Assembly: GCA_030710605.1 (NCBI GenBank)
Contig: CP092875.1
Location: 62,524,394-62,588,393, forward strand
Direction of reading: 5' to 3'
Source: Cordylochernes scorpioides
Lineage: Eukaryota; Arthropoda; Arachnida; Pseudoscorpiones; Chernetidae
Length of the DNA: 64,000 nt
Shown: one piece after another, positions 1 to 62,515 of the stretch
Layout of the letters: each line of letters starts with the position of its first letter
Position numbering within the stretch: the stretch's first letter is position 1
Program-made: the position numbers and the translations under genes
The notes under the pieces: generated by a model
Database searches by the model: none
What the model was told of the DNA's origin: nothing
What the model saw: the letters and a program-made list of their open reading frames with translations, nothing else

Positions 1-219
1 AAATAAATTTTATTTGGAGAGAAATCTATTCACATTCTGCATACTGAATTAAATTTCGAAGTTGTGAATCTAATTTGTACAAATATGACAAATTCCTTTT
101 GAAAAACCTTTTAAATACACACATATTATAGCAACAGATTTGAAAATTTTTAACCCTTAATAAATAAATATATCTAGTATATAGTAAATGAATAAATTTT
201 GTATTAATAAGAAAATTAT

Positions 220-716
220 ATACCTCGAAACGCGTCTGTGGTTAGCTTTTCTTGATTAATCAATAATAGGTATTTGGCCAATTCTTGAATAATTAAAAAT
301 CAACGAGAATAGTTGATATTTATTCCGATAGATGGCGCAAGCCACCAGAAACTTTCACTTGCACGATAAGGAGATGTTTTTTTCATAATTTATGCACCTT
401 ATCCCAGTACAATATCACATTTGTACTATAATTTCACATTGTGTAGCGTTCTCACGCAATTCTGGCCTTAACTACCCGTTTCGTGGATTTTCAGGATGCC
501 TGAATGACCAATTATTTGGTCGTTGAGGTACAGCTTACACCACGCTGAAGAGGGCCAACAGCCCGAAACGCGTCCGTGGTTAGCTTTTTTTGATGAATCA
601 ATAATGGGTATTTGGCCAATTCTTGAATTCTCGAAATAGAATAGTTGATATTTATTCCGATAGATGGCGCAAACCATCAGCAACCTTCAGTTGCACGATA
701 AGGAGATGCCTTTTTC
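220..716 (+). mobile_element. Family B repeat, partial tandem carrying a hammerhead motif (copy 1)
   Basis: Two head-to-tail units share the same order: the end of a hammerhead (GAAACGCGTC), TGGTTAGC, a TTGATTAATCAATAAT-like stretch, TATTTGGCCAATTCTTGAA, GATAGATGGCGCAA, TTGCACGATAAGGAGATG. Unit 1 runs from the cleavage position at 236/237 to the next one at 574/575, which is 338 nt. Unit 2 is cut short near 716. The left hammerhead is truncated (only its 3' half, from about 226, is kept); the middle one at 532-585 is complete. Tandem units bounded by type I hammerheads are the layout of animal retrozymes. No ORF is present, as expected for a non-autonomous element. Confidence 0.75.
532..585 (+). 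ncRNA. Type I hammerhead ribozyme
   Basis: Core CTGAAGA (545-551; consensus CTGANGA) is followed by stem II GGGC/GCCC (552-555 with 561-564) closed by loop CAACA, then GAAA (565-568). Stem III is minimal: AC/GT (568-569 with 572-573) with loop GC. The cleavage triplet is GTC, with C17 at 574. Stem I pairs ACCACG (539-544) with CGTGGT (575-580), six perfect base pairs; after an internal loop (536-538 against 581) AGCT (532-535) pairs with AGCT (582-585). Every conserved hammerhead position is present. Hammerheads with so short a stem III usually cleave best as dimers, which fits the tandem layout. Activity is inferred, not shown. Confidence 0.85.
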
Positions 717-900
717 ATAAAAGAATATCTTACTTATCAACACATATAAGTTACAGTGATTATCAATTTACTGTCTACAGCAAAAACCCATCAAAAAAGC
801 GCAAAAGCTTACAAAAAAACAAATATATAGAATAACAAAAATTACTAACAAGTATGTAACTACGCGCCATTTTCCTATTAATATAATTTACTATTGATTG

Positions 901-1092
901 AAAAGACATATATTGTATCAAAATTTCATTTATTTTTACCAATATTTCAGTTGGCTGACACCAATCTTTATCAAGGTGTTATAACATATTCATGACAACA
1001 ACAATACCTGATAGAGGTTGGCGTTCAGCCAACTGAAATATTCGTAAAATAAATGAAATTTTGATACAATATATGCCTTTTTAATTAAAGAT
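901..1092. mobile_element. Family A foldback element
   Basis: Inverted repeat of two arms of about 85 bases around a short centre (TTCATGACAACAACA). Outer ends read AAAGACATATATTG and CAATATATGCCTTTTT. Each arm holds ATTTCAGTTGGCTGA with CCAA and CTTTATCAAGG, a hairpin GTTGGC/GCCAAC flanked by TTGATAA-type and GAAATAT-type sequence. Flanked by TTAATTAAAG and a TGGATTGCTCTATTTTC-like stretch. The same element is at 57690-57886 and relatives are at 7866-8148 and 31540-31735. Confidence 0.85.
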
Positions 1093-1479
1093 TTATTTAT
1101 GGATTGCTCTATTTTCAAAATAATTTACCATTTAATATAAATACTTGTTACTTCATTTAGAATTTCCATTTAAAAATGATAGTAATATTTAAAAGAGCAC
1201 CTCTATGCTTTCAAAATACACGATACAATTAAATGTTTCTATCACCTTTATTCAAAGATAGTAAACTTTGATTTATATATTTATTTGTCCTAAATAAAAC
1301 CTTTCACTTCATCAGGTAAAACCTTTTGGAAATCGCGCCGATCTCACTTCAAACCTTGTTGATTGTAATGTTTTTTTTTCTTCTAATTAAAATTTGAAAG
1401 AACTACATAAAGTGTTGTGTGTGTGTGTAATTTTATTAGCCAAGTTTTGAAGAGAAATATTTTTTTATAATAGAGCAAC

Positions 1480-1640
1480 CCACATTTAATTCATTAGACA
1501 ATAAAAAGGCATATATTGGATTTAATAAAAGATTTATTTTGCCAATATTTTGGCTGGCTGAACACCAATCTTTATCGAGGCATTACACGCATAACACTAT
1601 GCGGCGCTGAGTTTGTGTATAGAAAAATTGTAGTTAAGAA
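1480..1640. mobile_element. Family A half-element
   Basis: Only one arm is present: GAGCAACCCACATTTAATTC, AAAAAGGCATATATTGGATT, CCAATATTTTGGCTGGCTGA, CTTTATCGAGGCATTACACG, then ACACTATGCGGCGCTGAG. The hairpin bases are partly changed. The same half-element is at about 58270-58430 in copy 2. Confidence 0.65.
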
Positions 1641-1745
1641 AAAAGACATCTCCTTATCGTGCAACTGAAAGTTGCTGCTGGCTTGCGCCATCTATCGAAA
1701 TAAATATCAACTATTCTCGTTGATTTTTAATTATTCCAGAATTGT
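1640..1745 (-). mobile_element. Family B fragment
   Basis: Reverse-oriented part of the family B unit: AAAAGACATCTCCTTATCGTG, AACTGAAAGTTGCTGCTGGC, TTGCGCCATCTATCG, ATCAACTATTCTCGTTGATT, TTTAATTATTCCAGAATTG. It lacks the hammerhead part and ends directly against the transposase relic at 1767. Confidence 0.7.
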
Positions 1746-1766
1746 GCCAATGTGTTGCAACTTGTA

Positions 1767-2090
1767 GTGTTACCATTTCTTGAGCATAGTAATAATGTCA
1801 TTTTCCAACAAGATAATGCCCAAGTACAATAAAGCCAACATCTCACGAGACTTCTTTCAAAATTTTGACATCCTTCTTTAGTTCGCATGTTCCCCAAATA
1901 TTTTCCCAATTGAGCATGTATGGGAAATTTGGCAATCTCCATAGGCAATAATCTTCAATAACTGGGCAAAAATGTTTAATGTCTAGCATTCACAAGATGG
2001 AATTAAAGAGCTGTATGATAGTATGTCTCACGGTGTATCTACTTGTTTACTTGCCAAAGAAAGACAGCAAATATTGATTAAAAAAACTGT
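1767..2090 (+). pseudogene. Tc1-type transposase, C-terminal relic (copy 1)
   Basis: Read through frameshifts and stops, this region gives VLPFLEHSNNVIFQQDNAQV, then ISRDFFQNFDIL, PNIFPIEHVWEIWQS and finally HSQDGIKELYDSMSHGVSTC. These match the order of the Tc1 family: the second catalytic Asp in FQQDNA, the catalytic Glu in PIEHVW, and the C-terminal region usually read as IPQ-D-LYDSMPRRV-AC. The N-terminal half, including DNA-binding domain and first Asp, is not seen. Several stops rule out function. Confidence 0.8.
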
Positions 2091-2099
2091 CTATCTCAA

Positions 2100-2940
2100 T
2101 GAATTTATATCGCTATTTTAAAATTTCAATCATTTTTTACATTATCATTATATAGTTCATCAATTTACAGAAATATACATAAGTATATTTAGGTGATACA
2201 ATTATTATTTTTTATTTTTTGCTTATTGTATAAAAGTATATAAATATTCTTTGAATTCTCAGCTTATAGAATTGACAAATACTTTTGAAAATAATTGAAA
2301 ATGATTGTGCATTTAAATTTCTAAATCATTTACAAATAGAAATTCTATAAGCCGCTGTGTCTTCTTCTGTAGATTTCTCAAATAATGAATCTTCTCCGAC
2401 AAATTAATTTTACTGCTGTAGTGAATGAAGTTGAATTGTTGAAATAATAAATGAGAAAATTCTATTACAGCTGTTCTCTCCTGTATTAGATGGTTAAATG
2501 AAGCTGGAAACAAAGGTCAATAGTTAGATTCCGAGTTATCTCTGGAGGGTTCCTAACCAACTTTGTTTCCCTAAATTAGATTCAAATTTATGTCTCATTA
2601 CATATCATTAGTAGTACCTTACTGTATAACATCGCCGGCATTGCTTGAATACAGTGCCAATACGAAGAGAATTGATTTTAACAAAACAAATATCTGCTTT
2701 ATCATTTTTCTAAATCAAAATTTTTAAAGTAAATTTTTAAATATATTTACATTCATATAATATCTATAATAACTCTGAATATATTATTTTTATTATTGAT
2801 TCACACAGATTAAATAAGATCTATACTGGAAGAGAGAAAAGGTAAGCTAGCATTATATCACATGACCTAAAAACTCCGTCTGATTGGGTAAATAAGAAAA
2901 ACGAATATAAAATAATTTCTGATTTTACAAGTAAATATAT
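2100..2940. other. AT-rich stretch without a recognised gene
   Basis: I see no coding, RNA or clear repeat signal here. The stretch recurs in copy 2 (about 58900-59700) with scattered differences. Confidence 0.5.
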
Positions 2941-3070
2941 TGTTCTTAGAACCCAAACGACTATAAAACAGGTCTCTATAGGCTTCTCTTCAAATGAAGC
3001 TTGTGTTTAGAAACAAAATTGGAAAGTTAAATTTCATTTGGCTAGTCAGGTTCCAGGATGGCTGTGTGGA

Positions 3071-3151
3071 CCAATCAATGAGCTACGGCCGGCGCGTGCG
3101 CGGTGGGGCGGTGTGATGCGGCGAGCGGGATGAGGGTAGTGCGAGAGGGAC
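3071..3151 (+). promoter_or_regulatory. GC-rich promoter or 5' UTR of the signal-peptide exon
   Basis: A sharp CpG- and GC-rich island in AT-rich surroundings, directly before the start codon. It holds a CCAAT box (CCAATCA, 3071-3077), an NRF1-like GCGCGTGCGC and a GC box GGGGCGG (3105-3111). No TATA box is evident, which suits a CpG-type promoter. By eye the block 2945-3219 shows no difference between the two copies, longer than most identical runs. The start-codon context GGGACATGG has G at -3 and G at +4. Confidence 0.6.
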
Positions 3152-3203
3152 ATGGCCTTCTACCTAGGAATACTATGGTTCGTCTTCCTCTGTCTTCCAT
3201 CAG
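3152..3203 (+). CDS. First coding exon, signal peptide (unknown gene)
   Basis: The ATG at 3152 opens a 52-nt coding stretch, MAFYLGILWFVFLCLPS plus one base of the next codon, ending in CAG and followed at once by the donor GTAAGT (3204-3209). The 17 residues are almost all hydrophobic and end in a short polar turn, as in a secretory signal peptide or signal anchor. It follows a GC-rich island with CCAAT and GC boxes. Reading past the donor gives a 67-residue frame with no recognisable domain and ending in a stop, so splicing is the better reading. The downstream exon is not certain: 49798 and 6428 are both phase-compatible. The product is probably secreted or membrane-inserted; I do not recognise the gene. 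Confidence 0.6.
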
Positions 3204-3359
3204 GTAAGTTCTTCTCTTCCTCAGACTCCATAGGAATCCACTTAATACTACCTGGCCAGCATCGACCATATCGCCTGAAATGGCTCTCGGTAAAAGCGAA
3301 GCTATGGCTTCCACATTTCCATGCAACCTGTACACTCTGGCTTTCTCCTACTTAAAGAT

Positions 3360-4340
3360 TTTATTAATACTTTTCTAGTTCTAATAAATCTATTCTATTA
3401 TTTCTATCGTTGATTTGTTTTCGTAACTTAGTTGTTCTTCTGTATATATGAATGTTGACATATTTTGATGATTGATAACTTCTAACAGCGCTTTTCTTAT
3501 CAATCACTTTGTGAATTCCTATGGTGTGGCTCTAAATACTTTATTCTATAATTAGCTATTGTACTTTTTTAACTTCTGGATCATATTGATATATTTATCT
3601 AATTGGTAACTTTTCACACTTTGCTTTCTTGACGAACGGAACAGCTTAATCGCTTCCCTTCACGGACTTTCTCTCTTCCATCACTTCAATCATTATCTCA
3701 TTAGTGGATTCTAATTAGTAACCTACGGATACAAACTCGGAAATACTTATCTGGTGGTCGCTATTAACAAACGGGGCGATTTTCAAACCTCATATTATAT
3801 GGTCAAAGTGTAATGTATATATTCTAGAATATGTTTTTTGTTCATATAAAATGTAATATATGCTATTATTCATCTCTATTTTATATATTTAAGCTCTAAG
3901 AAACATCTTATGAAATCTTTAAAAAAAACTTTTATAAAGGATTAATCAATCAAGTTTCATAAGGCTTACATTTTTTTAGGGATATATTACGTACGTTCAG
4001 GTAACATTATATATATTCCAAATTTATCTTTCACTCTTATATTCGACTATTATAAATATATATTTTTTGAAAATTGTTTCTAATAAATATTAAGGTGTTT
4101 ATATATATGCGTGTTCCAATTTTTACAGGTGTGCGCTGGGCATCATTCCCATATATATGTATATTCTTTATATTTCATCGGTTTAATATAACATTTTTTT
4201 CATCCAGAATAAATTATTTTCATAAAAGGTGTGTTATTAGCATATATGATCAATAATTGAAAATTTTCGATACCATTATATAGATTTATATTTTTAATTA
4301 AAAAGGCATATATTGGCTCAAATTGCAAATCATTTTTCAT
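3360..4340. other. Probable intron sequence, no gene seen
   Basis: AT-rich sequence downstream of the signal-peptide exon, well conserved in copy 2 (60160-61140). I see no further coding exon. A fragment with AATTAAAAAGGCATATATTGG near 4300 resembles a family A end and is absent or degraded in copy 2. Confidence 0.5.
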
Positions 4341-7662: not shown

Positions 7663-7865
7663 TGTTTTAATTCAAAAATAATTGTACACACGTCGAGAAA
7701 ATAGTTTATATTATTTCATATAACAGATGATAGGCTAATGCAACATATTGAGATAATGTGTTAAAGTGAGAATATAGTCTAACAAATTATAACTACCCTG
7801 TTTATCAAGACTTGTATGCGTATGTATAAATACAATTGATATAGATTATTATATTGAAAATAGAG

Positions 7866-8148
7866 CAATCCATAAATAAATCTTTAAATAAAAAGGCATA
7901 TATTTGGTCGAAAAACCGTTTATTTTACCAATATTTCAGTTGGCTGGATGCCAACCTTTATCAAGTTATTATAACATTTTAAAGTGTGAACATTTTAAGT
8001 GTTAGTTTAAGTTTTATTTTAGTTTTTAAGTGTTAAACATTTAAAAATGTTATAATACCTTGATAAAGGTTGGCGTTCAGCCAACTGAAATATTGGTAAA
8101 ATAAATGATATTTTGATCCAATATATGCCTTTTTATTTATAGATTATT
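7866..8148. mobile_element. Family A foldback element, long centre
   Basis: Arms as in other family A copies (GTTGGC/GCCAAC hairpin, TTATCAAG, ATATATGCCTTTTT), separated by a longer AT-rich centre that itself repeats AAAGTGT and TTAAGTG. Left flank GAAAATAGAGCAATCCAT, with the inverse of that flank only at 8255. Confidence 0.8.
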
Positions 8149-8149
8149 G

Positions 8150-8224
8150 TATATATTGGATTGAATAAAATATATATTTGCCTAAAGGCAAATACATCTT
8201 TCATTCAATCCAATATATGCCTTT
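8150..8224. repeat. Short perfect hairpin nested next to family A
   Basis: ATATATTGGATTGAAT and its inverse ATTCAATCCAATATAT surround the centre TTTGCCTAAAGGCAAA. It sits between the family A element and the terminal TGGATTGCTCTATTTTC, so it looks like a second foldback inserted in a larger unit. Confidence 0.7.
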
Positions 8225-8229
8225 TAAGT

Positions 8230-8800
8230 ATCTAATGATTTAAGTATGGATTGCTCTATTTTCAGAATAGATTATTGTGTTAAGTTGAGAATATCAAGCA
8301 TCCTGGGAAACGTTTGTTTTTAAATATTATTAATTCAAAAATCTATAGATTTCGGGAACGAAACCGCTAGAAGCCATGCTACAATAAATAATCAATAGGA
8401 CAAGAGTTATAATAAATACATAGGGTTCTATTGTGTGTGTGGCGACTTATTGTAGCGTGTATTTTCTTGTGGAAGAATTTTCTTGCCTGAGAGTTAGAGA
8501 TTTGTGAATTCAAATGTTTCAAAAGAAACGTATCCTCTTAAACCAGATATCTTAACTTTAATATTGAAACAATGGATTATTACAATACTCAATTTATTAC
8601 AAACCACGGAAATTTCAAAAGTTTTTTAAATAGAATAAAGGCAGTGGAGGATTCAAGTTGCTTTTGTGGTATTGAGTAACAAACTTCAAGACATCTACTG
8701 ATCGATTTTCCAGCATTTCAAGATTATAGAATGAAGAATGAACTAGTTGTTTGTGAACTTAACGATTTGATTTCCAAAAAAAAAAACATATTTAAAGTTC
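8230..8800. other. AT-rich stretch, nothing recognised
   Basis: No convincing coding frame, RNA or named repeat seen, apart from the family A terminal sequence at about 8240-8270. Confidence 0.4.
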
Positions 8801-10816: not shown

Positions 10817-10990
10817 AAAAAGACATCTCCTTATCGTGCAACTGAAAGTTGCTGATGGCTTGCGAGCCAAGCTCGCATCTTCCCCCATCAGCAACTTTAA
10901 GTTGCACAATAAGGAGATGTCTTTTTCTATAATTTATGCACCTTATCCCAGTACAATATCACATTTGTACTATTTCTTCACTTTTTATCT
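10817..10990. mobile_element. Family B foldback variant
   Basis: A hairpin of about 50-base arms: GACATCTCCTTATCGTGCAA, CTGAAAGTTGCTGATGG and inverse CCATCAGCAACTTTAAGTTG, CACAATAAGGAGATGTC, with the centre CTTGCGAGCCAAGCTCGCA, followed by TTATGCACCTTATCCCAGTA. Confidence 0.8.
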
Positions 10991-11675: not shown

Positions 11676-11962
11676 TAAAAAGGCATATCCTGTCCAGGAG
11701 CACATGTGCTTTACAGAAGGCAGAGCGCCATCTGGTGGAACAGATATCAACTAAACCTTGATTTAACCTGTTCCCTCACGAGCGCCAAAAGCGCGAAAAC
11801 GCGTTCGTGGATGGCTTTTCTTGATTTATCAATAAATTGGGTTTGCCAAATATCAGGTAACAGGCTAAATCAATGTTTAGTTGATTTCTGTTCCACCAGA
11901 TGGCGCTCTGCCTTCTCTAAAGCACATGTACTCCTGGTCAGGATATGTCTTTTTTTTTTTAA
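11676..11962. mobile_element. Family C foldback element
   Basis: Outer arms AAAAAGGCATATCCTGTCCA and inverse TGGTCAGGATATGTC; each arm holds CAGAGCGCCATCTGGTGGAA or its inverse. The centre, GAGCGCCAAAAGCGCGAAAA then CGCGTTCGTGG, is a decayed hammerhead core with stem II changed to GCGC/GCGC. Confidence 0.85.
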
Positions 11963-13084: not shown

Positions 13085-13515
13085 TGCCAGGTGTTGATAT
13101 TAAAAAACCAAAATTGGCATTTCCTGACCGCTCACATGAGCATTCTAGATAACAGAGCGCCATCTAGTGTAACAAAAATAAACTAAACCTTGATTTAGCT
13201 TTTTCCAAAAATATTTAGCCAACCCAATTTCTTTATAGTATATCAAGAAAGGTCAACCACGTACACGTTTCGGGCTGTTGACCCTGGTCAGCCTGGTGCT
13301 GACTCTACCTCTATGAACAGAATATTGAATCTCGAGGAGCAATATTTGATCGTGAAGGTACGGTCTGCATCATACTGACGAACGCCAACTGTCCGTAAGG
13401 CATACGTGGTTGACCATTCTTCATTCAAGAAATGAGGTTGACCAAATATCTTTGGAACAAGTTAAATCAACGTTTAGTTTATTTTTATTCCACTAGATGG
13501 CGCTCTGCGTGTAAG
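13085..13515. mobile_element. Family C foldback with decayed hammerhead
   Basis: Arms AACAGAGCGCCATCTAGTGT and inverse CCACTAGATGGCGCTCTGC enclose two opposed half-units. On the minus strand, 13256-13297 has the hammerhead layout: CTGACCA (G8 changed to C), stem II GGGT/GCCC, GAAACGTGTA, CGTGGT. The G8 change should block catalysis. Confidence 0.8.
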
Positions 13516-18094: not shown

Positions 18095-18345
18095 TCTAAG
18101 AATTAACAACTAATCGTTGATTTCTAATTATTCCCGAATTAGTCAAATACTGATGATGGCCAACATCCTGAAACGCGTACGTTATTAGCTTTTCTTGATT
18201 AATTAAAAAAGGGCATTCGGCAAATTTTGGAATAATTAAAAATCAACAATTAGGTCATATTTATTCCGATAGATTTCGCAAGACATCAGCAAATTTTATT
18301 TTCACGATTAGTAGATGCCTTTTAATACCTGATCCCAGTACAATT
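18095..18345 (+). mobile_element. Family B element with decayed hammerhead
   Basis: 18150-18180 reads CTGATGA, GGCCAACATCC, GAAACGCGTA, ACGT: the catalytic core is intact (CTGATGA, GAAA) but stem II keeps only two GC pairs and stem I no longer pairs. The downstream part matches the family B unit (TTAGCTTTTCTTGATTAATT, GATAGATTTCGCAAGAC). Confidence 0.7.
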
Positions 18346-19830: not shown

Positions 19831-20273
19831 AACTCGAAGAGTTTATTATAGTCGACCTAATATATTTATTAACGTTTTCTCTCTTTGACTTCTCTCTCAA
19901 TATAGGTTTAATAAATTATGCTAATAACTAAATTTGTGTTTATTTAAAGAGATATTTAGTGTCTCAACTATCAAAAGAAGAGCTGAAAACTATAAAATTT
20001 TGAAAATTAATTTTAAAATCTATGACAGTGTGTTGAAGCGTCAAATTTTTAATGTCTTCAATTTTAGATATAAACAATTTATGTTTTTTTTAATTTTATT
20101 TATATATAAAAAATATTTCCTATATATAATACTAGCCGAATGGCCCGAGCAACGCCCTGGTTTTACCCGATTAAATGCTTTTATTCAAATACTATCCGTT
20201 ACAATTATAAATTGGCGCCGTGGATGTCATTCTTGTATAATATATAAATGAGTTTTAAAAATTGTAAAAAAAA

Positions 20274-20343
20274 GCATCGGCTGGGAATCGAACCCGGGCC
20301 GCCCGCGTGGCAGGCGAGAATTCTACCACTGAACCACCGATGT
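20274..20343 (-). tRNA. tRNA-Gly (GCC)
   Basis: The minus strand folds as a standard tRNA-Gly: GGTGGTTCAGTGGTAGAATT (A box), anticodon loop CTGCCAC with anticodon GCC, B box GGGTTCGATTCCC. A run of eight T follows the 3' end, a Pol III terminator. Two mismatches from the usual animal tRNA-Gly are visible: A1 opposite C in the acceptor stem and a C/A pair in the T stem. It is either a slightly altered gene or a young pseudogene. Confidence 0.8.
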
Positions 20344-20572: not shown

Positions 20573-21568
20573 TCAGTAGCCAGAGTAGCCGCCATTGTTG
20601 GAGATCACCGCTGCCACACTCCTCGGCATTGATTCAAAGAGACTTTTGATGTGTTCTTAGGGTACAGCAGACCAAGCAGCTTCCACACGTTGCCAAAGTT
20701 GATCTGGTGTGGCAGCTGGGGATGTAATCTGGGTCAATCGTTTAGCAATCATGGACCATGTTTTCTATTGGCGAAAGATCCGGAGAGCGAGCCAGCCAGG
20801 GAAGCAATTCAATCTAGCGATTGACGAAGAACCTTTGGACAATGCGTGCCACGTATGGCCACGCATTATCCCGTTGAAATATGGCTGTGGGCAAGCCCTG
20901 AAGGTTAGGAAGGACAACTGGCTCCAACACCCCGGAGATGTAGCGTTGGCTGTTTAAAGTACCGGCAATGCGTACTAGAGGAGTGCGAGAGTGATTTCCA
21001 ATACCGCCCCATACTATGAGTGCAGGACCAGTGTGTTGGTGCATAACGCAGCTGTTCAGCATCCTCTCTCCACGGTGTCTCCAGACTCGAATCCGACCAT
21101 CGTGGTGTTGCAGACAAAAGCGTGACTCGTCATTAAAGACAATTTCATTTCGGCGGCGGAGACGTCTGTAGTTCTGCTTCAAATGTAGACGAAACAATGG
21201 GCGTCTTGTGGACAGACCACTCTGAAGTAAAAGGCGTCGAATGGTACGCACAGACACTGGATGATGCGTTACAGACTGAATGTGATGTGCTACGGTTCGT
21301 GATGTGACTGAGCGATCTGTCACTGCCATGCGTACAATTTGCCTGTCAGCACGTGAAGTGGTGCACTGAGGTGGATGCGATCGAACACGTCGGACCGTCG
21401 TACCTTCCTGCGTCCAACGATCACATATCCGCATTACAGTTGTTGGCTTTTTCCAACACGACTACCGATATTCCTAAAAGATAATCCACAATTTCGGTAA
21501 GCCACTATCCTTCCTCTGTCGAACTCGGATACTTGATCAAAAGACGATCGCTGTTTTCTACGAGTCAT
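20573..21568 (-). pseudogene. Tc1-type transposase, frameshifted
   Basis: Starts MTRRKQRSSFDQVSEFDRGR at 21568. Two N-terminal frames join by a frameshift at about 21434. The first catalytic Asp is in VFNDESRFCL, the second in FQRDNAWPY, and the Glu in SPDLSPIEN after a stop near 20814. The C-terminus, read through more breaks, ends in SMPRSVAAVISNNGGYSGY. A short deletion before the first Asp removes the usual Trp-rich linker. Tc1 transposase cuts and pastes its own element; this copy cannot. Its terminal repeats are not clearly resolved; candidate left sequence is AATTGCAACACCAAGAAAG near 20455. Confidence 0.85.
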
Positions 21569-23837: not shown

Positions 23838-25256
23838 CACTGCGTGACATTGAAAATAGAACACCAAGAAATAGTGGCCAGAAAATTATGCAAATTTCAG
23901 GGTAGACGCGCCTAACCGAGTTATGCAAATGATGTAAAATGCGCAGCTCTCGTGCGCACATGGAGTAAGATATAAGGGAAGGAACTTGCAGAAAGGACAG
24001 TATTCGTGTCGTTATTTCTTCAAGGAAAATCATTGTAGAATTTTTGTTCTTGTGTCAAAAGACACGTGTAATAACAGAGAATGCCAGGTCATCGTAAACG
24101 GAGGCAGTTCAAGCAGACAGACGCTTTTACGAGGGGCATGGTGATCGGACTGAAAAGGGCAGGTTGGTCCATACGTCAAATCGCAGCTGATACACACCTT
24201 GGTGCGTCCACGGTGCACCGACTGTGGAGAAGATGGTTGAAACAAGGAAATGTAGCAATTTATAGGAATGCCGGTGCAACCAGAGTGACGTCAACACGTG
24301 TGGATCGGCGTATCCTTCGACAAGCAGTGGCGGCCCCACAAGCCACTTGTACCGCCATCCTGCAACATGTGCAAGACACCCTAGATCATTCCATCTCGAC
24401 CAGAACCATTTCCCGTCGATTGGTTGCTAATGGCTTGCACTCATGCCGTCCGCTAAGAAGACTGCCATTGACCCCACCGAATAGGCGCCAACGTTTGGAA
24501 TGGTGCCGGGCTAGATCGACGTGGATGACGGAATGGCACAGGGTCGTGTTCTCAGATGAGTCGCGTTTCTGCTTGTCCAGTGATAGTCGCCGTGTACGCG
24601 TGTGGCGTCGACGTGGAGAAAGGTCCAATCCGGCAGCAATTGTGGAACGCCCCACCGTGCGACAACGTGGAATCATGGTTTGGGGCGCAATCGCGTATGA
24701 TTCCAGGTCACCTTTACTTCGTATTCAGGGCACTATGACGGCTCAACGATACGTTGATGATGTGCTGCGACCGGTGACACTCCCCTACCTTCAGGGGGTA
24801 CCCAATGCCCTTTATCAGCAGGATAACGCCCGACCGCACACTGCTCGCATTAGCCAACAAGCTCTGCGAGATGTACAGATGCTTCCCTGGCCACCGTACT
24901 CTCCTGATCTCTCACCAATCGAGCACGTCTGGGACATCATTGGATGCCGTTTGCATGTCTTGCCACAGCCGCGTTCAGAAGACGAACTGTGGCAAATGGT
25001 TGAGAGGGAATGGAGAGCCATCCCTCAGGACGCCATCCGTACTCTGATTGACTCTCTACCTAGACGTGTTGCTGCGTGCATCGCCGTCCGCGGTGGTCCT
25101 ACTTGCTACTAAGCCGACGCCGTTCTCGCTCTGTATTATGACTATCATTTTGAAATAAAGATCACTTATTGTTCGTCCCTGTCTCTCTCTGTCTGCCAAG
25201 TTTCATCACTCTCTGGCCACTATTTCTTGGTGTTCCATTTTCAATGTCACGCAGTG
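23838..25256 (+). mobile_element. Complete Tc1-type transposon
   Basis: 1419 bp bounded by TA on both sides (23836-23837, 25257-25258). Terminal inverted repeats of about 45 bases (CACTGCGTGACATTGAAAAT and onward to TAGTGGCCAGA; 25212-25256 is the inverse, with one mismatch). It encodes one uninterrupted transposase at 24081-25112. Its GC content is far above the neighbouring DNA. Intact ends, an intact frame and nearly identical terminal repeats indicate a recent insertion. Confidence 0.95.
24081..25112 (+). CDS. Tc1-type DDE transposase, intact
   Basis: 343 residues, the usual Tc1 length. Residues about 1-60 form a helix-turn-helix (AFTRGMVIGLKRAGWSIRQI, LGASTVHRLWRRW), followed by a second DNA-binding helical region to about 125 with basic stretches (RRPLRRLPL-like). 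The catalytic domain has D159 in VVFSDESRFCL, D248 in YQQDNARPHTAR and E281 in YSPDLSPIEHVWD. By my count 32 residues lie between the second Asp and the Glu, against 34 in textbook Tc1. The C-terminus ends VAACIAVRGGPTCY. The first ATG gives the expected N-terminus MPGHRKRRQF. The protein should act in the nucleus, binding the 45-base ends and moving the element into TA sites. It is the only full-length intact gene in the window. Confidence 0.95.
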   Translation: MPGHRKRRQFKQTDAFTRGMVIGLKRAGWSIRQIAADTHLGASTVHRLWRRWLKQGNVAIYRNAGATRVTSTRVDRRILRQAVAAPQATCTAILQHVQDTLDHSISTRTISRRLVANGLHSCRPLRRLPLTPPNRRQRLEWCRARSTWMTEWHRVVFSDESRFCLSSDSRRVRVWRRRGERSNPAAIVERPTVRQRGIMVWGAIAYDSRSPLLRIQGTMTAQRYVDDVLRPVTLPYLQGVPNALYQQDNARPHTARISQQALRDVQMLPWPPYSPDLSPIEHVWDIIGCRLHVLPQPRSEDELWQMVEREWRAIPQDAIRTLIDSLPRRVAACIAVRGGPTCY

Positions 25257-31040: not shown

Positions 31041-31535
31041 ATAAATATTTTCTATCATCATCTTTTCTTCTAGCTTCTTTAATAATACAATCTTAATACA
31101 TAACATTTGTTAAAATGTCGATCCCATAAATTGGCTACTTAAATTTGATTTGATGACACTTAATTATATTTTTCTGTGTGTCTTTGAGTAACTGATTGAG
31201 TATAAATCATTTTCAATAAGAGATAGAATTCCAATAATATTAATGTATGCTAGAACATTTTGTAGCTTTAAAATATTTATTATTTTATTTATTTATATCA
31301 CACCTATAGGATATATAATGGAAGACATATTGAAACAGCGAAACCCCTTGTCTTTCCTAGAGGGGGTTATTCAATGAATGTTGGATTATATTAGGACAAG
31401 TCATTTTTGGACCAAAATGGGCGTTCATGGAAGGCAGGTTTTACTATATTATTGTTCAATACGTGTTTTATTTTTATATATGAAAATGATATGAATTATA
31501 TGACACATACACATACACGTACAAGTGTATTGAAA
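31040..31535. other. AT-rich stretch, nothing recognised
   Basis: No coding frame supported. Confidence 0.4.
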
Positions 31536-31539
31536 ATAG

Positions 31540-31740
31540 AGCAATCCATAAATAAATCTTTAATTAAAAAGGCATATATTGGATCAAAATATAATTTATT
31601 TTACCATTATTTCAGTTGGCTGAACGCCAACCTTTATCAAGGTGTTTTAACATGTTGATAAAGGTTGGCGTTCAGCCAACTGAAATATTGGTAAAATAAA
31701 TTATATTTTGATTCAATGTATGCCTTTTTAATTAAATACA
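31540..31740. mobile_element. Family A foldback element, best preserved
   Basis: Arms of about 88 bases with very few mismatches around GGTGTTTTAACATGTTG. Each strand reads TTGATAAAGGTTGGCGTTCA then GCCAACTGAAATATTGG: a hairpin GTTGGC/GCCAAC in a hammerhead-like setting, but with C3 and G8 of the core changed (TTGATAA). Left flank GAAAATAGAGCAATCCAT. Confidence 0.9.
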
Positions 31741-43634: not shown

Positions 43635-43975
43635 ACAAAAAAGGTATATCCTGACCAGCTCACACGAGTATTTCTAGATGGCAGAGCGCCATCTAGTGGA
43701 ACAAAAATAAACGTTTATTTAACTTGTTCCCTGATATTTGGTCAACCCATTTTCTTGATAAATCAAGACAAGTCAACCATAAACGAGTTTCGGGCTGTTG
43801 GCCCTCGTCAGCGTGGTGCAGAATGTACCTTTATGACCAAAATTCGATCCCAGAGGCTTCCTGAGAAATCAAGAAATGGGTATTAAAGGCCAAATTGCGT
43901 GAATACACTTTTCATGTGAAAAAAATATATATATTTTTTAAAAAGGTCAGATGTTGATATTAAAAACAAAATATA
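43635..43975. mobile_element. Family C element carrying a hammerhead
   Basis: AAAGGTATATCCTGACCAGC, GCAGAGCGCCATCTAGTGGA, CATTTTCTTGATAAATCAAG on the left; AAAAAGGTCAGATGTTGATA on the right. Contains the minus-strand hammerhead at 43776-43817. Confidence 0.75.
43776..43817 (-). ncRNA. Type I hammerhead ribozyme, family C
   Basis: The minus strand reads ACCACG, CTGACGA, stem II GGGC/GCCC with loop CAACA, GAAA, CTCGTT, TATGGT. Core CTGANGA and GAAA are intact and position 17 is T, which is allowed. Stem I has one C/A mismatch and one G/T pair near the core. It should be weaker than the family B version but may still work. Confidence 0.65.
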
Positions 43976-50282: not shown

Positions 50283-50885
50283 TTATGAAAACAGTTCCGC
50301 ATCTTGTTTTGAAGGTCTCAGGTCACGTGTCAAATTATTCAGTTTTGGTTGTGAAAAACGTTTTGGACATTCTTGTTCTCCATAGTTCTCACTATCAGAA
50401 TCATCCAGTTCGATATATTTTTGTGTGGTGTCTTCTGATTCATCATAAAGAGGATTATTAGCACTGGATGAAAAAACTGGGAGGAGACTATTTGGGCTGT
50501 GTGGTATTGGAAGTCTAGCTGAATATAGGTCTTTGTATTTAAGATTTTTCTTACCATTCCTGTTAAAGTGTTTCAAGTCTTGTACGCAAAAGTAACAATC
50601 ATAGTCATGATTTTTTGGCCCTCGCCAAACCATAGGAATCCCAAATGTCAGTTGCCTTTCACCCTTTGTCCACTGGCGCAGTGTTTCGACACACGTTTTG
50701 CATACCTTATGTGGAGCCCATGTATTGTTCTGGTCTCCTAATTTTATATCAAAATATGCGAAATCCGCCCGCTTTACAAAGTCTGTTATTGCATTTCTTC
50801 GCACTTTTACAGTATATTCGCCACATATATAACGGAAATATTTGGGTTGTTTTTGCAGGATCTTCTTTTGGAAACCATGTCTGGA
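50283..50885 (-). CDS. CxxC-rich protein of a repeat-associated arthropod family, 5' incomplete
   Basis: The frame reads FRYICGEYTVKVRRNAITDF, FDIKLGDQNNTWAPHKVCKTC, FGIPMVWRGPKNHDYDCYFC, YSARLPIPHSPNS and then an acidic, Ser-rich tail ending at 50283. Two CxxC pairs (VCKTC, CYFC) plus the upstream ICG suggest a zinc-binding fold. I recognise the pattern APHKVCK-C, PMVWREPK-H--DCYFC, SA-RP-PHS from many uncharacterised arthropod and cnidarian proteins that occur in multiple copies. No ATG begins the visible frame (the codon before RRNA is GTG), and the 5' end fades near 50880, so an upstream exon is missing or lost. About 173 residues remain open from the GTG. Function unknown. Confidence 0.7.
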   Translation of the reverse strand, partial: SRHGFQKKILQKQPKYFRYICGEYTVKVRRNAITDFVKRADFAYFDIKLGDQNNTWAPHKVCKTCVETLRQWTKGERQLTFGIPMVWRGPKNHDYDCYFCVQDLKHFNRNGKKNLKYKDLYSARLPIPHSPNSLLPVFSSSANNPLYDESEDTTQKYIELDDSDSENYGEQECPKRFSQPKLNNLTRDLRPSKQDAELFS

Positions 50886-50889
50886 AGTG

Positions 50890-51230
50890 AATTGATTAAT
50901 GTGTTAAATTTTTATTTTCATAAAGTAGATGGCATAGCTTTTAAATGAATGATGCTTGAAATAATAATTTTCATTAAATTCAATCTGTATGAATAAAATA
51001 TATTTTCACTAAATATTTAAATACTTATTTAATTTTTGACAATTTCAAATTAGAAGTGATGGTATAATGTTTTAAGTTATTTATTTATTTTGATTGTTAA
51101 AATTTTATTTTTTACACAAAGTTAATGGCGTATGTTTTAGAAGAACTTTGAGATGTGATGATTGTAAAAATTATGAAGCAATCATGATGGCTTGGCAGTT
51201 TTCTTTATGAAAATATTATTTTTGTGAAAT
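50890..51230. other. AT-rich stretch, nothing recognised
   Basis: No feature that I can support. Confidence 0.4.
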
Positions 51231-56530: not shown

Positions 56531-57014
56531 AACAATATTATATATATATATCATTTACCAAGTGACTCAATTTTTAACTTATTGATCGATTAAAAATATA
56601 TATATTTGAAGATATATTTTACTATTATTTCTTATTTTTTATATAAAATTTTAATTATCCAAAAATTTATATTTATAACATACTTTTCAAAACCTCACAG
56701 TAAATATTTATAAAAATGTAAATTCACACGTTGAAGTCAATTTTTAAATTTGCATAAGTAGAAGATATCGCATTACCAAATGTAATTTAAAAAATAAATA
56801 AATTTTATTTGGAGAGAAATCTATTCACATTCTGCATACTGAATTAAATTTCGAAGTTGTGAATCTAATTTGTACAAATATGACAAATTCCTTTTGAAAA
56901 ACCTTTTAAATACATACATATTATAGCAACAGATTTGAAAAACTTTAACCCTTAATAAATAAATATATCTAGTATATAGTAAATGAATAAGTTTTGTATT
57001 AATAAGAAAATTAT

Positions 57015-57520
57015 ATAGCTCGAATAGCGTCTGGGGTTAGCTTTCCTTGATTAATCAATAATAGGTATTTGGCCAATTCTGGAATAATTAAAAATCAACG
57101 AGAATAGTTGATATTTATTCCGATAGATGGCGCAAGCCTTAAGCAACTTTCAGTTGCACGATAAGGAGATGTTTTTTTCATAATTTATGCACCTTATCCC
57201 AGTACAATATCACATTTGTATTATAATTTCACATTGTGTAGCGTTCTCACCCAATTCTGGCCTTAACTACCCGTTTCATGGATTTTCAGGATGTCTGAAT
57301 GACCAAATATTTGGTCGTTGAGGTACAGCTTACACCACGCTGAAGAGGGCCAGCAGCCCGAAACGCGTCCGTGGTTAGCTTTTCTTGATTAATCAATAAT
57401 GGGTATTCGGCCAATTCTTGAATTGGCGAAATAGAATAGTTTATATTTATTCCGATAGATGGAGCAAACCATCAGCAACCTTCAGTTGCACGATAAGGAG
57501 ATGCCTTTTTCATAAAAGAA
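57015..57520 (+). mobile_element. Family B repeat, partial tandem carrying a hammerhead motif (copy 2)
   Basis: Same element as at 220-716, in the second copy of the duplicated segment. The left truncated hammerhead half has decayed further (GAATAGCGTC in place of GAAACGCGTC). Distance between the two cleavage positions (57031 and 57369) is again 338 nt. The right-hand unit has GATAGATGGAGCAAAC where copy 1 has GATAGATGGCGCAAAC. Confidence 0.75.
57327..57380 (+). ncRNA. Type I hammerhead ribozyme (second copy)
   Basis: Same design as at 532-585: stem I ACCACG (57334-57339) with CGTGGT (57370-57375), outer AGCT/AGCT pairing (57327-57330 with 57377-57380), core CTGAAGA (57340-57346), stem II GGGC/GCCC, GAAA (57360-57363), and C17 at 57369. 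The only change from the first copy is in loop II (CAGCA in place of CAACA), where base identity matters little to the catalytic core. Confidence 0.83.
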
Positions 57521-57689
57521 TATCTTACTTATCAACACATATAAGTTACAGTGATTATCAATTTACTGTCTACAGCAAAAAACCATCAAAGAAGCGCAAA
57601 AGCTTCCAAAAAACAAATATATAGAATAATAAAAATTACTAACAAGTATATGTATATAATTGTATTGTATATAATTTACTATTGATTGA

Positions 57690-57890
57690 AAAGACATATA
57701 TTGAATCAAAATATCATTTATTTTACCAATATTTCAGTTGGCTGACACCAACCTTTATCAAGGTGTTATAACATATTCATGTCAACAACAATACCTGATA
57801 AAGGTTGGCGTTCAGCCAACTTAAATATTCGTAAAATAAATGAAATTTTGATACAATATATACCTTTTTAATTAAAGATTTATTTATGGA
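57690..57890. mobile_element. Family A foldback element (copy 2)
   Basis: Copy of the element at 901-1092, with the same arms and centre and a few substitutions. Outer ends AAAAGACATATATTG and ATATATACCTTTTTAATT. Confidence 0.85.
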
Positions 57891-58429
57891 TTGCTCTATT
57901 TTCAAAATAATTTACCATTTAATATAAATACTTGTTACTTCATTTAGAATTTCCATTTAAAAATGATAGTAATATTTAAAAGAGCACTTCTATGCTTTCA
58001 AAATACACGATACAATTAAATGTTTCTATCACCTTTATTCAAAGATAGTAAACTTTGATTTACATATTTATTTGTCCTAAATAAGTCCTTTCAGACACAC
58101 TTCATCAAAAAAACCCTTTTGGAAATCTCGGCGATGTCACTTTCAATCCTTGGTGATTGGAAGGCTAGTTTTCTTTTTATTCTAATTGAATTTTGAAAGA
58201 ACTACCAAGAAGGTGTGTGTAATTTTCAGAGCCAAGATTTAAAGAAATATATTTTTTCAAAAAAGAGCAATCCATATTTAATTCATTTGATAATAAAAAG
58301 GCATATATTGGTTTTATAAAATATTTATTTTGGCAATATTTCGGCTGGCTGAACACCAACCTTTATCGAGGCATTACACGCATAACACTATGCGGCGCTG
58401 AGTTTGTGTATAGAAAAATTGTAGTTAAG

Positions 58430-58550
58430 AAAAAGGGCATCTCCTTATCGTGCAACTGAAAGTTGCTGCTGGCTTGCGCCATCTATCGGAATAAATATAA
58501 ATTATTCTCGTTGATTTTTTATTATTCCAGAATTGTGCCAATGTGTTGCA
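58430..58550 (-). mobile_element. Family B fragment (copy 2)
   Basis: GGCATCTCCTTATCGTGCAA, CTTGCGCCATCTATCGGAAT: counterpart of 1640-1745. Confidence 0.7.
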
Positions 58551-58557
58551 ACTTGTT

Positions 58558-58882
58558 GTGTTACCATTTCTTGAGCATAGTAATAATGCCATTTTTTTCC
58601 AACAAGATAATGCCCAAGTACAATAAAGCCAACATCTCACGAGACTTCCTTCAAAATTTTGACATCCTTCTTTAGTTCGAATGTTCCTAAAATATTTTAC
58701 CCAATTGAGCATGTATTGGAAATTTGGCAATCTCCATAGTCAATAATCTTCAATAACTGGGCAAAAATGTTTAATGTCTTGGTCTAGCATTCACAAGATG
58801 GAATTAAAGAACTGTATGATAGTATGTCTCACGGTCTATCTACTTGTTTACGTGCCGAAGAAAGATGCCAAATATTGATAAA
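58558..58882 (+). pseudogene. Tc1-type transposase, C-terminal relic (copy 2)
   Basis: Same relic as at 1767-2090, with the same FQQDNA and IEHV segments and the same stops, plus small indels such as a longer T run before CCAACAAGATAATG. It was therefore already dead before the two copies of the segment separated. Confidence 0.8.
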
Positions 58883-59870
58883 AGCTGTCTACCTCAATAA
58901 AATTATATCGCTATTTTAAAATTTCAATCATTTTTCACATTATTTTTATATAGTTCATCAATTTACAGAAATATACATAAGTATATTTAGGTGATACAAT
59001 TATTCTTTTTTTATTTTTTGCCCATTGTATAAAAGTATATAAATATTCTTTGAACTCTCAGCTTATAGAATTGACAAATACTTTTGAAAATAATTGAAAA
59101 TGATTGTGCATTTAGATTTCAAAATCATTTACAAATAGAAATTCTATAAGCCGCTGTGTCTTCTTCTGTAGCTTTCTCAAATAATGAATCTTTACCGACA
59201 AATTACTTTTACTGCTGTAGTGAATGAAGTTGAATTGATGAAATAATAAATGAGAAAATTCTATTACAGCTGTTCTCTCCTGTATTAGATGGTTAAATGA
59301 AGCTGGAAACAAAGGTCAATAGTTAGATTCCGAGTTATCTCTGGAGAGTTCCTAACCAACTTTGTTTCCCTAAATTAGATTCAAATTTATGTCTCATTAC
59401 ATATCATTAGTAGTACCTTACTGTATAACATCGCCGGGTTGACTTAAATACAGTACCAATACGAAGAATTGATTTTAACAAAACACATACCTGCTTTATC
59501 ATTCTTCAAAATCAAATATTTTAAAGTAAATTATTAAATATATTTACATTCATATAATATCTATATTAACTCTGAATATATTATTTTTATTATTAATTCA
59601 CAAAGATTAAATAAGATCTATACTGGAAGAGGGAGAAAAGGTAAGCTAGCATTATATCACATGACCCTAAAACTCCGTCTGATTGGGTAAATAAGAAAAA
59701 CGAATATAAAAGAATTTCTAATTTTTACAAGTAAATATATTGTTCTTAGAACCCAAACGACTATAAAACAGGTCTCTATAGGCTTCTCTTCAAATGAAGC
59801 TTGTGTTTAGAAACAAAATTGGAAAGTTAAATTTCATTTGGCTAGTCAGGTTCCAGGATGGCTGTGTGGA

Positions 59871-59951
59871 CCAATCAATGAGCTACGGCCGGCGCGTGCG
59901 CGGTGGGGCGGTGTGATGCGGCGAGCGGGATGAGGGTAGTGCGAGAGGGAC
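59871..59951 (+). promoter_or_regulatory. GC-rich promoter or 5' UTR (second copy)
   Basis: Matches 3071-3151 base for base by eye, including the CCAAT box at 59871-59877, the GCGCGTGCGC motif and the GGGGCGG box. Conservation here, against scattered differences elsewhere in the duplicated segment, supports a functional promoter or a very recent duplication. Confidence 0.6.
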
Positions 59952-60003
59952 ATGGCCTTCTACCTAGGAATACTATGGTTCGTCTTCCTCTGTCTTCCAT
60001 CAG
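59952..60003 (+). CDS. First coding exon, signal peptide (second copy)
   Basis: Identical to the exon at 3152-3203, including the CAG/GTAAGT donor. Differences between copies begin only in the intron (for example TTCTTCTCTTTC against TTCTTCTCTTCC). Its downstream exons would lie beyond the window end. If the duplication is real this is a paralogue; if it is an assembly artefact, the two exons are alleles of one gene. Confidence 0.6.
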
Positions 60004-61144
60004 GTAAGTTCTTCTCTTTCTCAGACTACATAGGAATCCACTTAATACTACCTAGCCAGCATCGACCATATCGCCTGAAATGGCTCTCGGTAAAAGCGAA
60101 GCTATGGCTTCCACATTTCCATGCAACCTGTACACTCTGGCTTTCTCCTACTTAAAGATTTTATGAATACTTTTCTAGTTCTTAATTAATCTATTCTATT
60201 AATTCTATCGTTGATTTGTTTTCGTAACTTAGTTGTTCTCCTGTATATATGAATGTTGACATATTTTGATGATTGATAACTTCTAACAGCGCTTTTCTTA
60301 TCAATCACTTTGTGAATTCCTATGGTGTGGCTCTAAATACTTTATTCTATAATTAGCTATTGTACTTTTTTTAACTTCTGGATTAAATTGATATATTTAT
60401 CTAATTGGTAACTTTTCACACTTTGCTTTCTTGACGAACGGAACAGCTTAATCGCTTCTCTTCACGGACTTTCTCTCTTCCATCACTTCAATCATTATCT
60501 CATTAGTGGATTCTAATTAGTAACCTACGGATACAAACTCGGAAATACTTATCTGGTGGTCGCTATTAACAAACGGGGCGATTTTCAAACCTCATATTAT
60601 ATGGTCAAAGTGTAATGTATATATTCTAGAATATGTTTTTGTTCATATGAAATGTAATATATATATGATATTATTCATCTCTATTATATATATTCAAGCT
60701 ATTATAAACATCTTGTAAGATCTTAAAATACCTTATATTAAGGATTAATCATTTAAGTTTCATAAGGCTTACATTTTTTTAGGGATATATTACGTACGTT
60801 CAGGTAACATTATATATATTCCAAATTTATCTTTCACTCTTATATTCGACTATTATAAATATATATTTTTTGAAAATTGTTTCTAATAAATATTAAGGTG
60901 TTTAAATATATATGCGTGTTCCAATTTTTACAGGTGTGCGCTGGGCATCATTCCCATATATATGTATATTCTTTATATTTCATCGGTTTAATATAGAAAT
61001 TTTTTCATCCAGAATAAAATATTTTTATAAAAGGTGTGTTATTAGCATATATGATCAATAATTAAAAATTTTCGATACCATTATATAGATTTATATGTTT
61101 TATGATATAAAGGATATAAGTTGCAAAGCATTTTTTATTATACA

Positions 61145-62297: not shown

Positions 62298-62515
62298 CAA
62301 AATTAAGAAAAAAAGCATCTCCTTATCGTGCAATTGAAAGTTGCGGATGGCTTGCGCCATCTATCGGAATAAATATCAACTATTCTCGTTGATTTTTAAT
62401 TATTCCAGAATTGGCCAAATACCTATTCTTGATTAATCATAAGAAAATGCCTTTTTCTTAATTTATGCACCTTATCCCAGTACAATATCACATTTGTACT
62501 ATTTTTTCACTTATA
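62298..62515 (-). mobile_element. Family B insertion present only in copy 2
   Basis: GCATCTCCTTATCGTGCAAT, TTGCGCCATCTATCGGAATA, AATTATTCCAGAATTGGCCA, TATGCACCTTATCCCAGTAC. Copy 1 has none of this at the matching site (5500-5510), where the flanks ACAACCTTTTAATACAAG run straight on. Confidence 0.85.

Follow-up and report, generated by a model that had tools for sequence, protein, structure and literature searches.

What kind of ribozyme is carried by a short repeat in the genome of the pseudoscorpion Cordylochernes scorpioides (2.62 Gb in 24 contigs), and how is that repeat copied? The question arises at positions 532-585, plus strand, of the stretch of DNA that was analysed (64,000 nucleotides, called the window), where an earlier note had claimed a complete type I hammerhead ribozyme inside a short repeat. 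That claim was correct, and the ribozyme was found to sit in a 338-bp unit. The repeat around it belongs to a retrozyme family that is dispersed and has an insertion anatomy of its own, and is not a plain tandem repeat.

The letters of the motif were read directly. An outer stem I helix pairs AGCT (532-535) with AGCT (582-585), a 3-by-1 internal loop follows (TAC, 536-538, opposite T581), and the inner stem I pairs ACCACG (539-544) with CGTGGT (575-580). Enclosed by these are the catalytic core CTGAAGA (545-551; C3 to A9, with A at N7), stem-loop II (552-564; GGGC 552-555 and GCCC 561-564 around the loop CAACA 556-560), the GAA of the core (565-567) and a minimal stem III formed by the palindrome ACGCGT (568-573), in which A568-C569 faces G572-T573 across the 2-nt loop GC. 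The cleavage triplet GTC occupies 572-574, with the predicted cut at 574/575. A CUGANGA...GAA core, an A15.1-U16.1 pair, an NUH triplet and an open stem I are all present, so that the core letters of a type I hammerhead are complete and in the order that had been claimed, and the stems drawn earlier agree with the sequence. The core letters were intact in 40 of the 45 distinct window-like copies that span the ribozyme site. The 3-by-1 internal loop and a CAACA-like loop II were retained in most of 62 aligned rows (described below), and a putative tertiary contact between loop I and loop II is plausible.

The match had been judged to lie far beyond chance, and the searches bear this out. A covariance model (R2) trained on 39 rows, all from subfamilies other than the window's own, scored 531-586 at 80.6 bits in the 64-kb window (E 1e-24; E-values of this tool are rough), and gave six more sites with E of 6e-6 or less and one at 0.63. 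Alignment A1 has 47 rows outside plain family A, from which the 39 were drawn; two window rows, one out-of-register row and five others were left out, by no fixed selection rule. A 30-base core word (one base N) had 9,932 exact copies in the 2.62-Gb genome, as against 0 for the reversed pattern. The check with Rfam covariance models that had been suggested for the window gave a divided result: the site fell below threshold in Rfam and was clear with the model from other subfamilies. Rfam 15 at its curated gathering score reported neither 532-585 nor the other hammerhead copies of the window, although the family has about 10,000 exact hammerhead cores, and a permissive search of 1.2 kb (E up to 10) did not report 532-585. 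A search of 121 bases gave Hammerhead_HH9 (RF02275) at 27 bits (E 3.1e-5), which is sub-threshold against a cut-off of 52. The same sub-threshold match appeared in 6 of 14 other loci searched (10 sites in all) and was absent from the other 8, though several of these carry hammerhead-like motifs.

Compensatory changes among the copies support the pairing of stems I and II. A regular expression that fixed the core letters and the first stem III pair, and left stems I and II free, was run over 90 loci and the window, some of them overlapping. It found 64 distinct 56-nt sequences, of which two chance matches outside the repeat were dropped; the remaining 62 form alignment A1, which excludes copies with indels or a broken core. 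Because RNAalifold by itself recovered just 3 pairs from A1, all in stem II, pairs were counted on a stated structure, under which 92.5% of 991 cells pair. There were 64 double-change cells, as compared to 24.7 ± 3.4 in shuffled alignments (0 of 500 as high), and these cells count descent as well as events, since the rows are related copies. Slid structures gave at most 11, a control that leans towards the stated structure because the latter was taken from one of the sequences. No excess was observed in the number of pairs with a double change (5 versus 4.4 in shuffles, 176 of 500 as high) or in further pair types (17 versus 16.3, 213 of 500 as high). The outer AGCT/AGCT helix proposed in the earlier note gained support from C-G to T-A double changes at columns 4/53 (4 of 62 rows) and 5/52 (16 of 62), and the rows that do not pair there number 15 and 5, respectively. 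T-A replaced A-T in 22 of the 62 rows where inner stem I ends, both sides of stem II columns 23/33 had changed in 21 (8 unpaired), and column pair 11/48 had one further row with both sides changed. The second pair of stem II is G-C, C-G or A-T among relatives. Covariation in the 39-row set behaved like that in A1.

The weak point of the motif is stem III, which within one copy has 2 bp closed by a 2-nt loop and between two copies has 6 bp. The energy model disallows the single-copy form with a 2-nt loop. The local fold of the hammerhead is unremarkable by itself (z -1.75, 7 of 200 shuffles equally good), and the best predicted single-copy fold is an inactive alternative with 542-545 paired with 570-573. 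With a 2-nt loop, fast cleavage by a single copy is unlikely, which points to a dimer as the active form. When two copies are folded together, a nested double hammerhead with 6 bp in stem III becomes possible. It is the predicted minimum-energy dimer of the window copy (-41.7 versus 2 x -17.7, or -35.4, kcal/mol), and for the commonest variant it is predicted to lie 0.5 kcal/mol above the best dimer. On these models the two-copy double hammerhead is the probable active form of the window ribozyme. Newt and axolotl hammerheads also cleave better as dimers, according to the available portions of PMC7229834 and PMC6155905.

Between two equivalent cleavage positions lies a 338-nt stretch (237-574, plus strand; GC 0.391, no long frame) that would, in an intact array, form the unit RNA. 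The ribozyme upstream of it is truncated (model R1 gives 12.6 bits at 195-248), and because that copy is cut inside the ribozyme, the window locus has only one intact ribozyme. Closed as a circle, the window unit is predicted to fold at -86.6 kcal/mol, as compared to -65.9 ± 5.0 for 100 shuffles (z -4.1), and the unit of locus L020 at -112.7, as compared to -68.8 ± 4.7 (100 shuffles, z -9.4). GC content ranges from 0.39 to 0.41 among the units, whose longest stop-free stretches measure 45-73 aa, the value for the tripled window unit being 45 aa. A core variant with stem II GCGC/GCGC had 9,286 copies in the genome and a word downstream of the ribozyme 23,645, with 0 for both reversed controls. 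For two of these words 100 places each were listed, in which same-strand neighbours lay 338-350 bp apart, and at one of the places listed six copies of the unit word stood in a row, 338 bp apart.

Metazoan non-LTR retrozymes, in the available text of PMC7229834 (Cervera and de la Pena 2020), have a unit of 170-400 nt with a type I hammerhead, occur as dimers to multimers in thousands of copies, have low GC and a strongly self-paired circle, show target-site duplications (TSDs) of more than 4 bp when present, and share their genomes with Penelope-like elements (PLEs). The pseudoscorpion repeat was found to be non-coding, within the 170-400 bp range, present as dimers to multimers, low in GC and self-paired as a circle, with TSDs of more than 4 bp. 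Judged by its sequence, the 338-bp non-coding, self-paired, tandem unit is a metazoan non-LTR retrozyme. The loci examined were picked for resembling the window or one of three relatives, and of the thousands of candidates in each search the best 40 were scored, so the sample favours similar copies. Hammerhead-like motifs with a different stem III also occur in other repeats, at L071, L075, L076, L078 and L038 (ACCATGGT in several); at L071 and L075, stem III is ACCATGGT and the direct-repeat spacing is ~320 bp, and such repeats lie in the flanks of examined loci. The promoter scan looked for bacterial promoters and is uninformative for this host.

In what follows, positions marked U and B are those of the family A unit (338 nt, from L020) and the family B unit (349 nt, 71% identical to A over 318 alignment columns). 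In the window, the insertion arm at 226-720 (plus) comprises a 5'-truncated copy from 226 (U175, inside the ribozyme) to ~389, followed by a near-complete unit ending at U337; no head-to-head partner and no clear duplication were seen for this insertion. The stretch at 390-440 (plus), between the two family A 3'-end sites described below (U1 at ~390, U50 at ~439), holds a hairpin and is proposed as the counterpart of the PLE tail. Unit mapping placed an opposite-strand fragment (U223 to U337) at 1634-1750 (minus). Window positions 1-4000 and 56796-60803 form a 4.0-kb direct duplicate, 94% identical, with a retrozyme insertion in each, the second at 57017-57515 (plus) with its hammerhead at 57326-57381. 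The R2 model also marked a hammerhead of a related subfamily at 43770-43825 (minus, 70.1 bits) and hammerhead relatives at 13250-13305 (minus, 55.0 bits), head to head with this at 13361-13416 (plus, 37.1 bits), at 11764-11817 (plus, 42.8 bits) and, decayed, at 18140-18191 (plus, 25.5 bits). Two short insertions are head to head within themselves: 62300-62510 (minus arm ending at U2, plus arm at U48) and 10817-10984 (minus arm U332, plus arm U51).

The window holds other elements as well. An inverted-repeat element at 894-1088 has arms (894-936 and 1046-1088) that are 93% complementary, with relatives near 7848-8273, 31530-31736, 57682-57875 and 58254-58375; a microRNA reading of 915-1067 was rejected, as the Rfam matches were far below cut-offs and lay on the inverted repeat. 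Tc1-like transposase frames were found at 24075-25112 (plus; Pfam HTH_Tnp_Tc3_2 and DDE_3, open over 345 codons) and 20814-21461 (minus; HTH_Tnp_Tc3_2), and a tRNA gene at 20273-20343 (minus, 50.5 bits). An open frame at 50283-50903 (minus), which had no Pfam match, has relatives among hypothetical or unnamed proteins of the pseudoscorpion itself, two beetles, a sea slug and a spider.

The insertion anatomy was determined for family A in 26 loci (L003-L030 minus two neighbour-repeats) together with the window. Mapping onto the L020 unit retained 48 arms of at least 40 nt and at least 88% identity, and 16 lesser matches were dropped. The 3' ends of 44 of the 48 arms fell into two zones, drawn after seeing the data (30 in U330-U8 and 14 in U43-U56), which gives two 3'-end sites ~45-50 nt apart; the other four lay at U13, U27, U143 and U282. 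The 5' ends were spread, with 3 of 48 inside the 3'-end zones. All 15 adjacent arm pairs ran minus then plus, that is, head to head, and in 11 of them one arm ended near U0 and the other at U47-U53, a pattern from which the pairs at L009, L017, L021 and L030 depart. None of the 48 arms began or ended within 3 nt of the cleavage bond. The bond was crossed by 36 of the 48 arms, ten of which crossed it at least twice, and those arms would therefore have been copied from a circle or from a multimer left uncleaved, rather than from a linear monomer produced by cleavage. Word searches gave a similar picture for neighbours less than 1.5 kb apart: 17 head-to-head, 1 tail-to-tail and 7 same-strand for the downstream word (100 places listed, contig C1), and 8, 1 and 12, respectively, for the ribozyme word (100 places listed).

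Family B was sampled with 47 arms at an identity limit of 82% (8 dropped; L031 was excluded, as it repeats L004). Its 3' ends lay in B336-B6 (32 arms) and B27-B43 (11 arms), together 43 of 47, with four elsewhere and an offset between the two sites of ~32-48 nt. The 5' ends of two of the 47 arms fell in these zones, and a group of 5' ends in B1-B26 probably reflects how a T-rich stretch was aligned. All seven adjacent pairs were head to head, with one end per zone.

Many family A inserts carry target duplications of 11-15 bp. When 7 nt of play was allowed at the insert ends, direct repeats of at least 11 bp abutted 15 of 26 family A inserts versus 38 of 650 swapped flanks, and those holding a G or C abutted 11 of 26 versus 11 of 650. 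A repeat of this length was missing at 11 of the 26 inserts, and some of the repeats are plain (TA)n. The target flanks are AT-rich, with a mean GC of 0.188 over 20-nt flanks of the 26 inserts. A part of the head-to-head arms could be assembly errors, a reading opposed by the duplications, which match at both insert ends.

Head-to-head arms, two 3'-end sites, an AT-rich target and a TSD together make up the layout of PLE inserts. In the available text of PMC3846280, PLE inserts have inverted head-to-head pseudo-LTRs (pLTRs), one with an optional 3' tail, which measured 31 bp in one insert of Adineta vaga; the TSDs described there are of 8, 9 and 10 bp, and some A. vaga inserts have none. A purified lizard PLE (PAc, from Anolis) cuts and extends both DNA strands, prefers AT-rich DNA, initiates reverse transcription at two internal RNA sites that are separated by the 30-40 nt of the tail, uses start sites that are alike on both strands, and inserts in vitro without hammerhead cleavage (PMC11167929). 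The insertion anatomy, as read from the assembled genome, supports mobilisation of the retrozyme by PLEs. A different enzyme with PLE-like habits could also make the inserts.

Many GIY-YIG domains are present in the genome. The genome search listed 146 matches after 150 of 17,015 first-look candidates had been scored, and all 11 neighbour pairs less than 10 kb apart among those listed were head to head. At L091 a GIY-YIG domain (Pfam) lies near the start of a long frame; at L093 the genome search placed one likewise near the start, and Pfam found none there at E 0.001. The order seen at these two loci is one that we take to be that of Naiad. The L091 domain lies within inverted arms of 2.7 kb that are 98.4% identical. 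At L092 the domain (PF01541) is near the end of its frame, and a minimal hammerhead with an ACGT stem III was recognised by eye ~285 nt downstream of the frame; neither Rfam nor model R1 reports it. A ~184-bp tandem repeat (L092:1051-1492) was also observed downstream of the PLE-like frame and the hammerhead-like motif. The family A unit had no BLAST match (E of 0.01 or less) in L091, L092 or L093, and the family B unit had T-rich matches in L091 only, among the three (51 bp, 78%, filter off).

The retrozyme unit is not itself a PLE, because no long frame (an RT plus GIY-YIG ORF) is present in it. It might still be the pLTR of an autonomous PLE, standing alone or in tandem, with a linear uncleaved transcript being copied and the ribozyme incidental. 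PLE pLTRs do carry type I hammerheads and occur in inverted, tailed copies (PMC11167929; available text of PMC3846280), and both the insertion in vitro without cleavage (PMC11167929) and the lack of arm ends at the cleavage bond would suit this explanation; the row of six unit words at 338 bp with no long frame in the unit, and the missing matches of unit A in the GIY-YIG loci (three only), do not. An incidental ribozyme is also difficult to reconcile with core letters retained between units that are ~29% different and with covariation in stems I and II, and we consider the pLTR explanation unlikely.

It is very unlikely that LINE-type copying with twin priming, or satellite amplification at the DNA level, produced the arrays and inversions. 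Twin priming is not known to place the 3' ends of both arms at the end of the element, which is where both were found here; the 5' truncation is LINE-like. The tandem arrays are satellite-like and a part of the window is a 4-kb duplicate, but copies that are dispersed, abutted by duplications and biased 17 to 1 towards head-to-head order would not arise from a satellite.

That the motif is the fossil of a once active retrozyme, at the window locus or family-wide, is very unlikely: identity to the L020 unit is 91% for the window arm, as compared to at least 97% in 19 of the 48 arms, and its upstream copy is cut inside the ribozyme, leaving one intact ribozyme at the locus, but the core and stems of the window copy are intact, and the 9,932 exact cores together with 14 of 48 arms at 98% identity or more suggest recent activity of the family. 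It is quite possible that the window locus itself is inactive, since a dimer needs two copies.

We therefore return to the retrozyme as a non-autonomous, non-coding element of the metazoan type that is copied in the manner of PLEs, and consider it likely that the whole of the following cycle applies. Head-to-tail arrays of the 338-nt unit would be transcribed, and two ribozyme copies would pair through ACGCGT into a double hammerhead in vivo and cut after GTC, releasing unit RNAs that a host RNA ligase would close into circles. A PLE protein (RT plus GIY-YIG endonuclease) would then bind the RNA and cut both strands of AT-rich DNA. Reverse transcription would be primed inside the RNA by each of the cut ends, at ~U0 or ~U50. 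The cDNA would pass the closed cleavage bond and round the circle once or more, giving tandem units. The two 5'-truncated arms would meet head to head, and repair would leave duplications of 11-15 bp. Two-site priming with cDNA running round a circle would explain the head-to-head arms, the tandem units and the 'tail' by one mechanism. On balance we favour, with less confidence, the wider proposal that animal retrozymes are non-autonomous partners of PLEs in which both strands prime within a closed RNA circle, at two sites ~50 nt apart.

PLEs were named strong candidates for moving animal retrozymes in the available text of PMC7229834, because the two share type I hammerheads and a tandem layout and are found in the same genomes. 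The anatomy of insertions is stronger evidence for the link than shared traits and co-occurrence. The genome offers thousands of retrozyme copies of at least two subfamilies beside many PLE-like domains, and the question of PLEs and retrozymes can now be tested with one PLE protein, one 338-nt circle and two predicted start sites. What is new is the insertion anatomy of a retrozyme; the ribozyme and the repeat themselves are of a known kind. In the open-licence literature searched, which does not include two central papers on PLEs and hammerheads, we found no description of a head-to-head anatomy for animal retrozymes and no hammerhead ribozyme in a pseudoscorpion or spider. The word 'inverted', where it occurs with retrozyme and Penelope in the available text of PMC7761336 and PMC11722881, refers to other things.

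The retrozyme resembles PLEs (PMC11167929; available text of PMC3846280) in its head-to-head inverted copies, 5' truncation, AT-rich targets, TSDs, tandem arrays, type I hammerhead, putative internal start of reverse transcription and putative optional tail on one arm. It differs in that its unit is without an ORF and its stem I has an internal loop. The family A offset of ~45-50 nt exceeds the published PLE tail of 30-40 nt (PMC11167929), the TSDs are 11-15 bp as compared to 8, 9 and 10 bp in the cases described in the available text of PMC3846280, and the arms usually end at different sites, whereas the start sites of PAc did not differ by strand (PMC11167929). Compared with the metazoan retrozymes in the available text of PMC7229834, the pseudoscorpion family agrees in unit size, tandem state, GC, fold, TSDs and copy number, and differs in its host and in the head-to-head arms and two fixed 3' ends, which do not appear in that text. 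Hammerhead_HH9, the best Rfam match, is also of type I, with similar core spacing and a longer stem III than the window hammerhead. The satellite hammerhead HHR_Amex1 of the axolotl, in the available text of PMC7229834, likewise has a unit of ~330 nt, a very weak palindromic stem III and dimers that cleave better; its stem III consists of one pair and a palindromic tetraloop, and that of the window consists of ACGCGT, with two pairs and a 2-nt loop.
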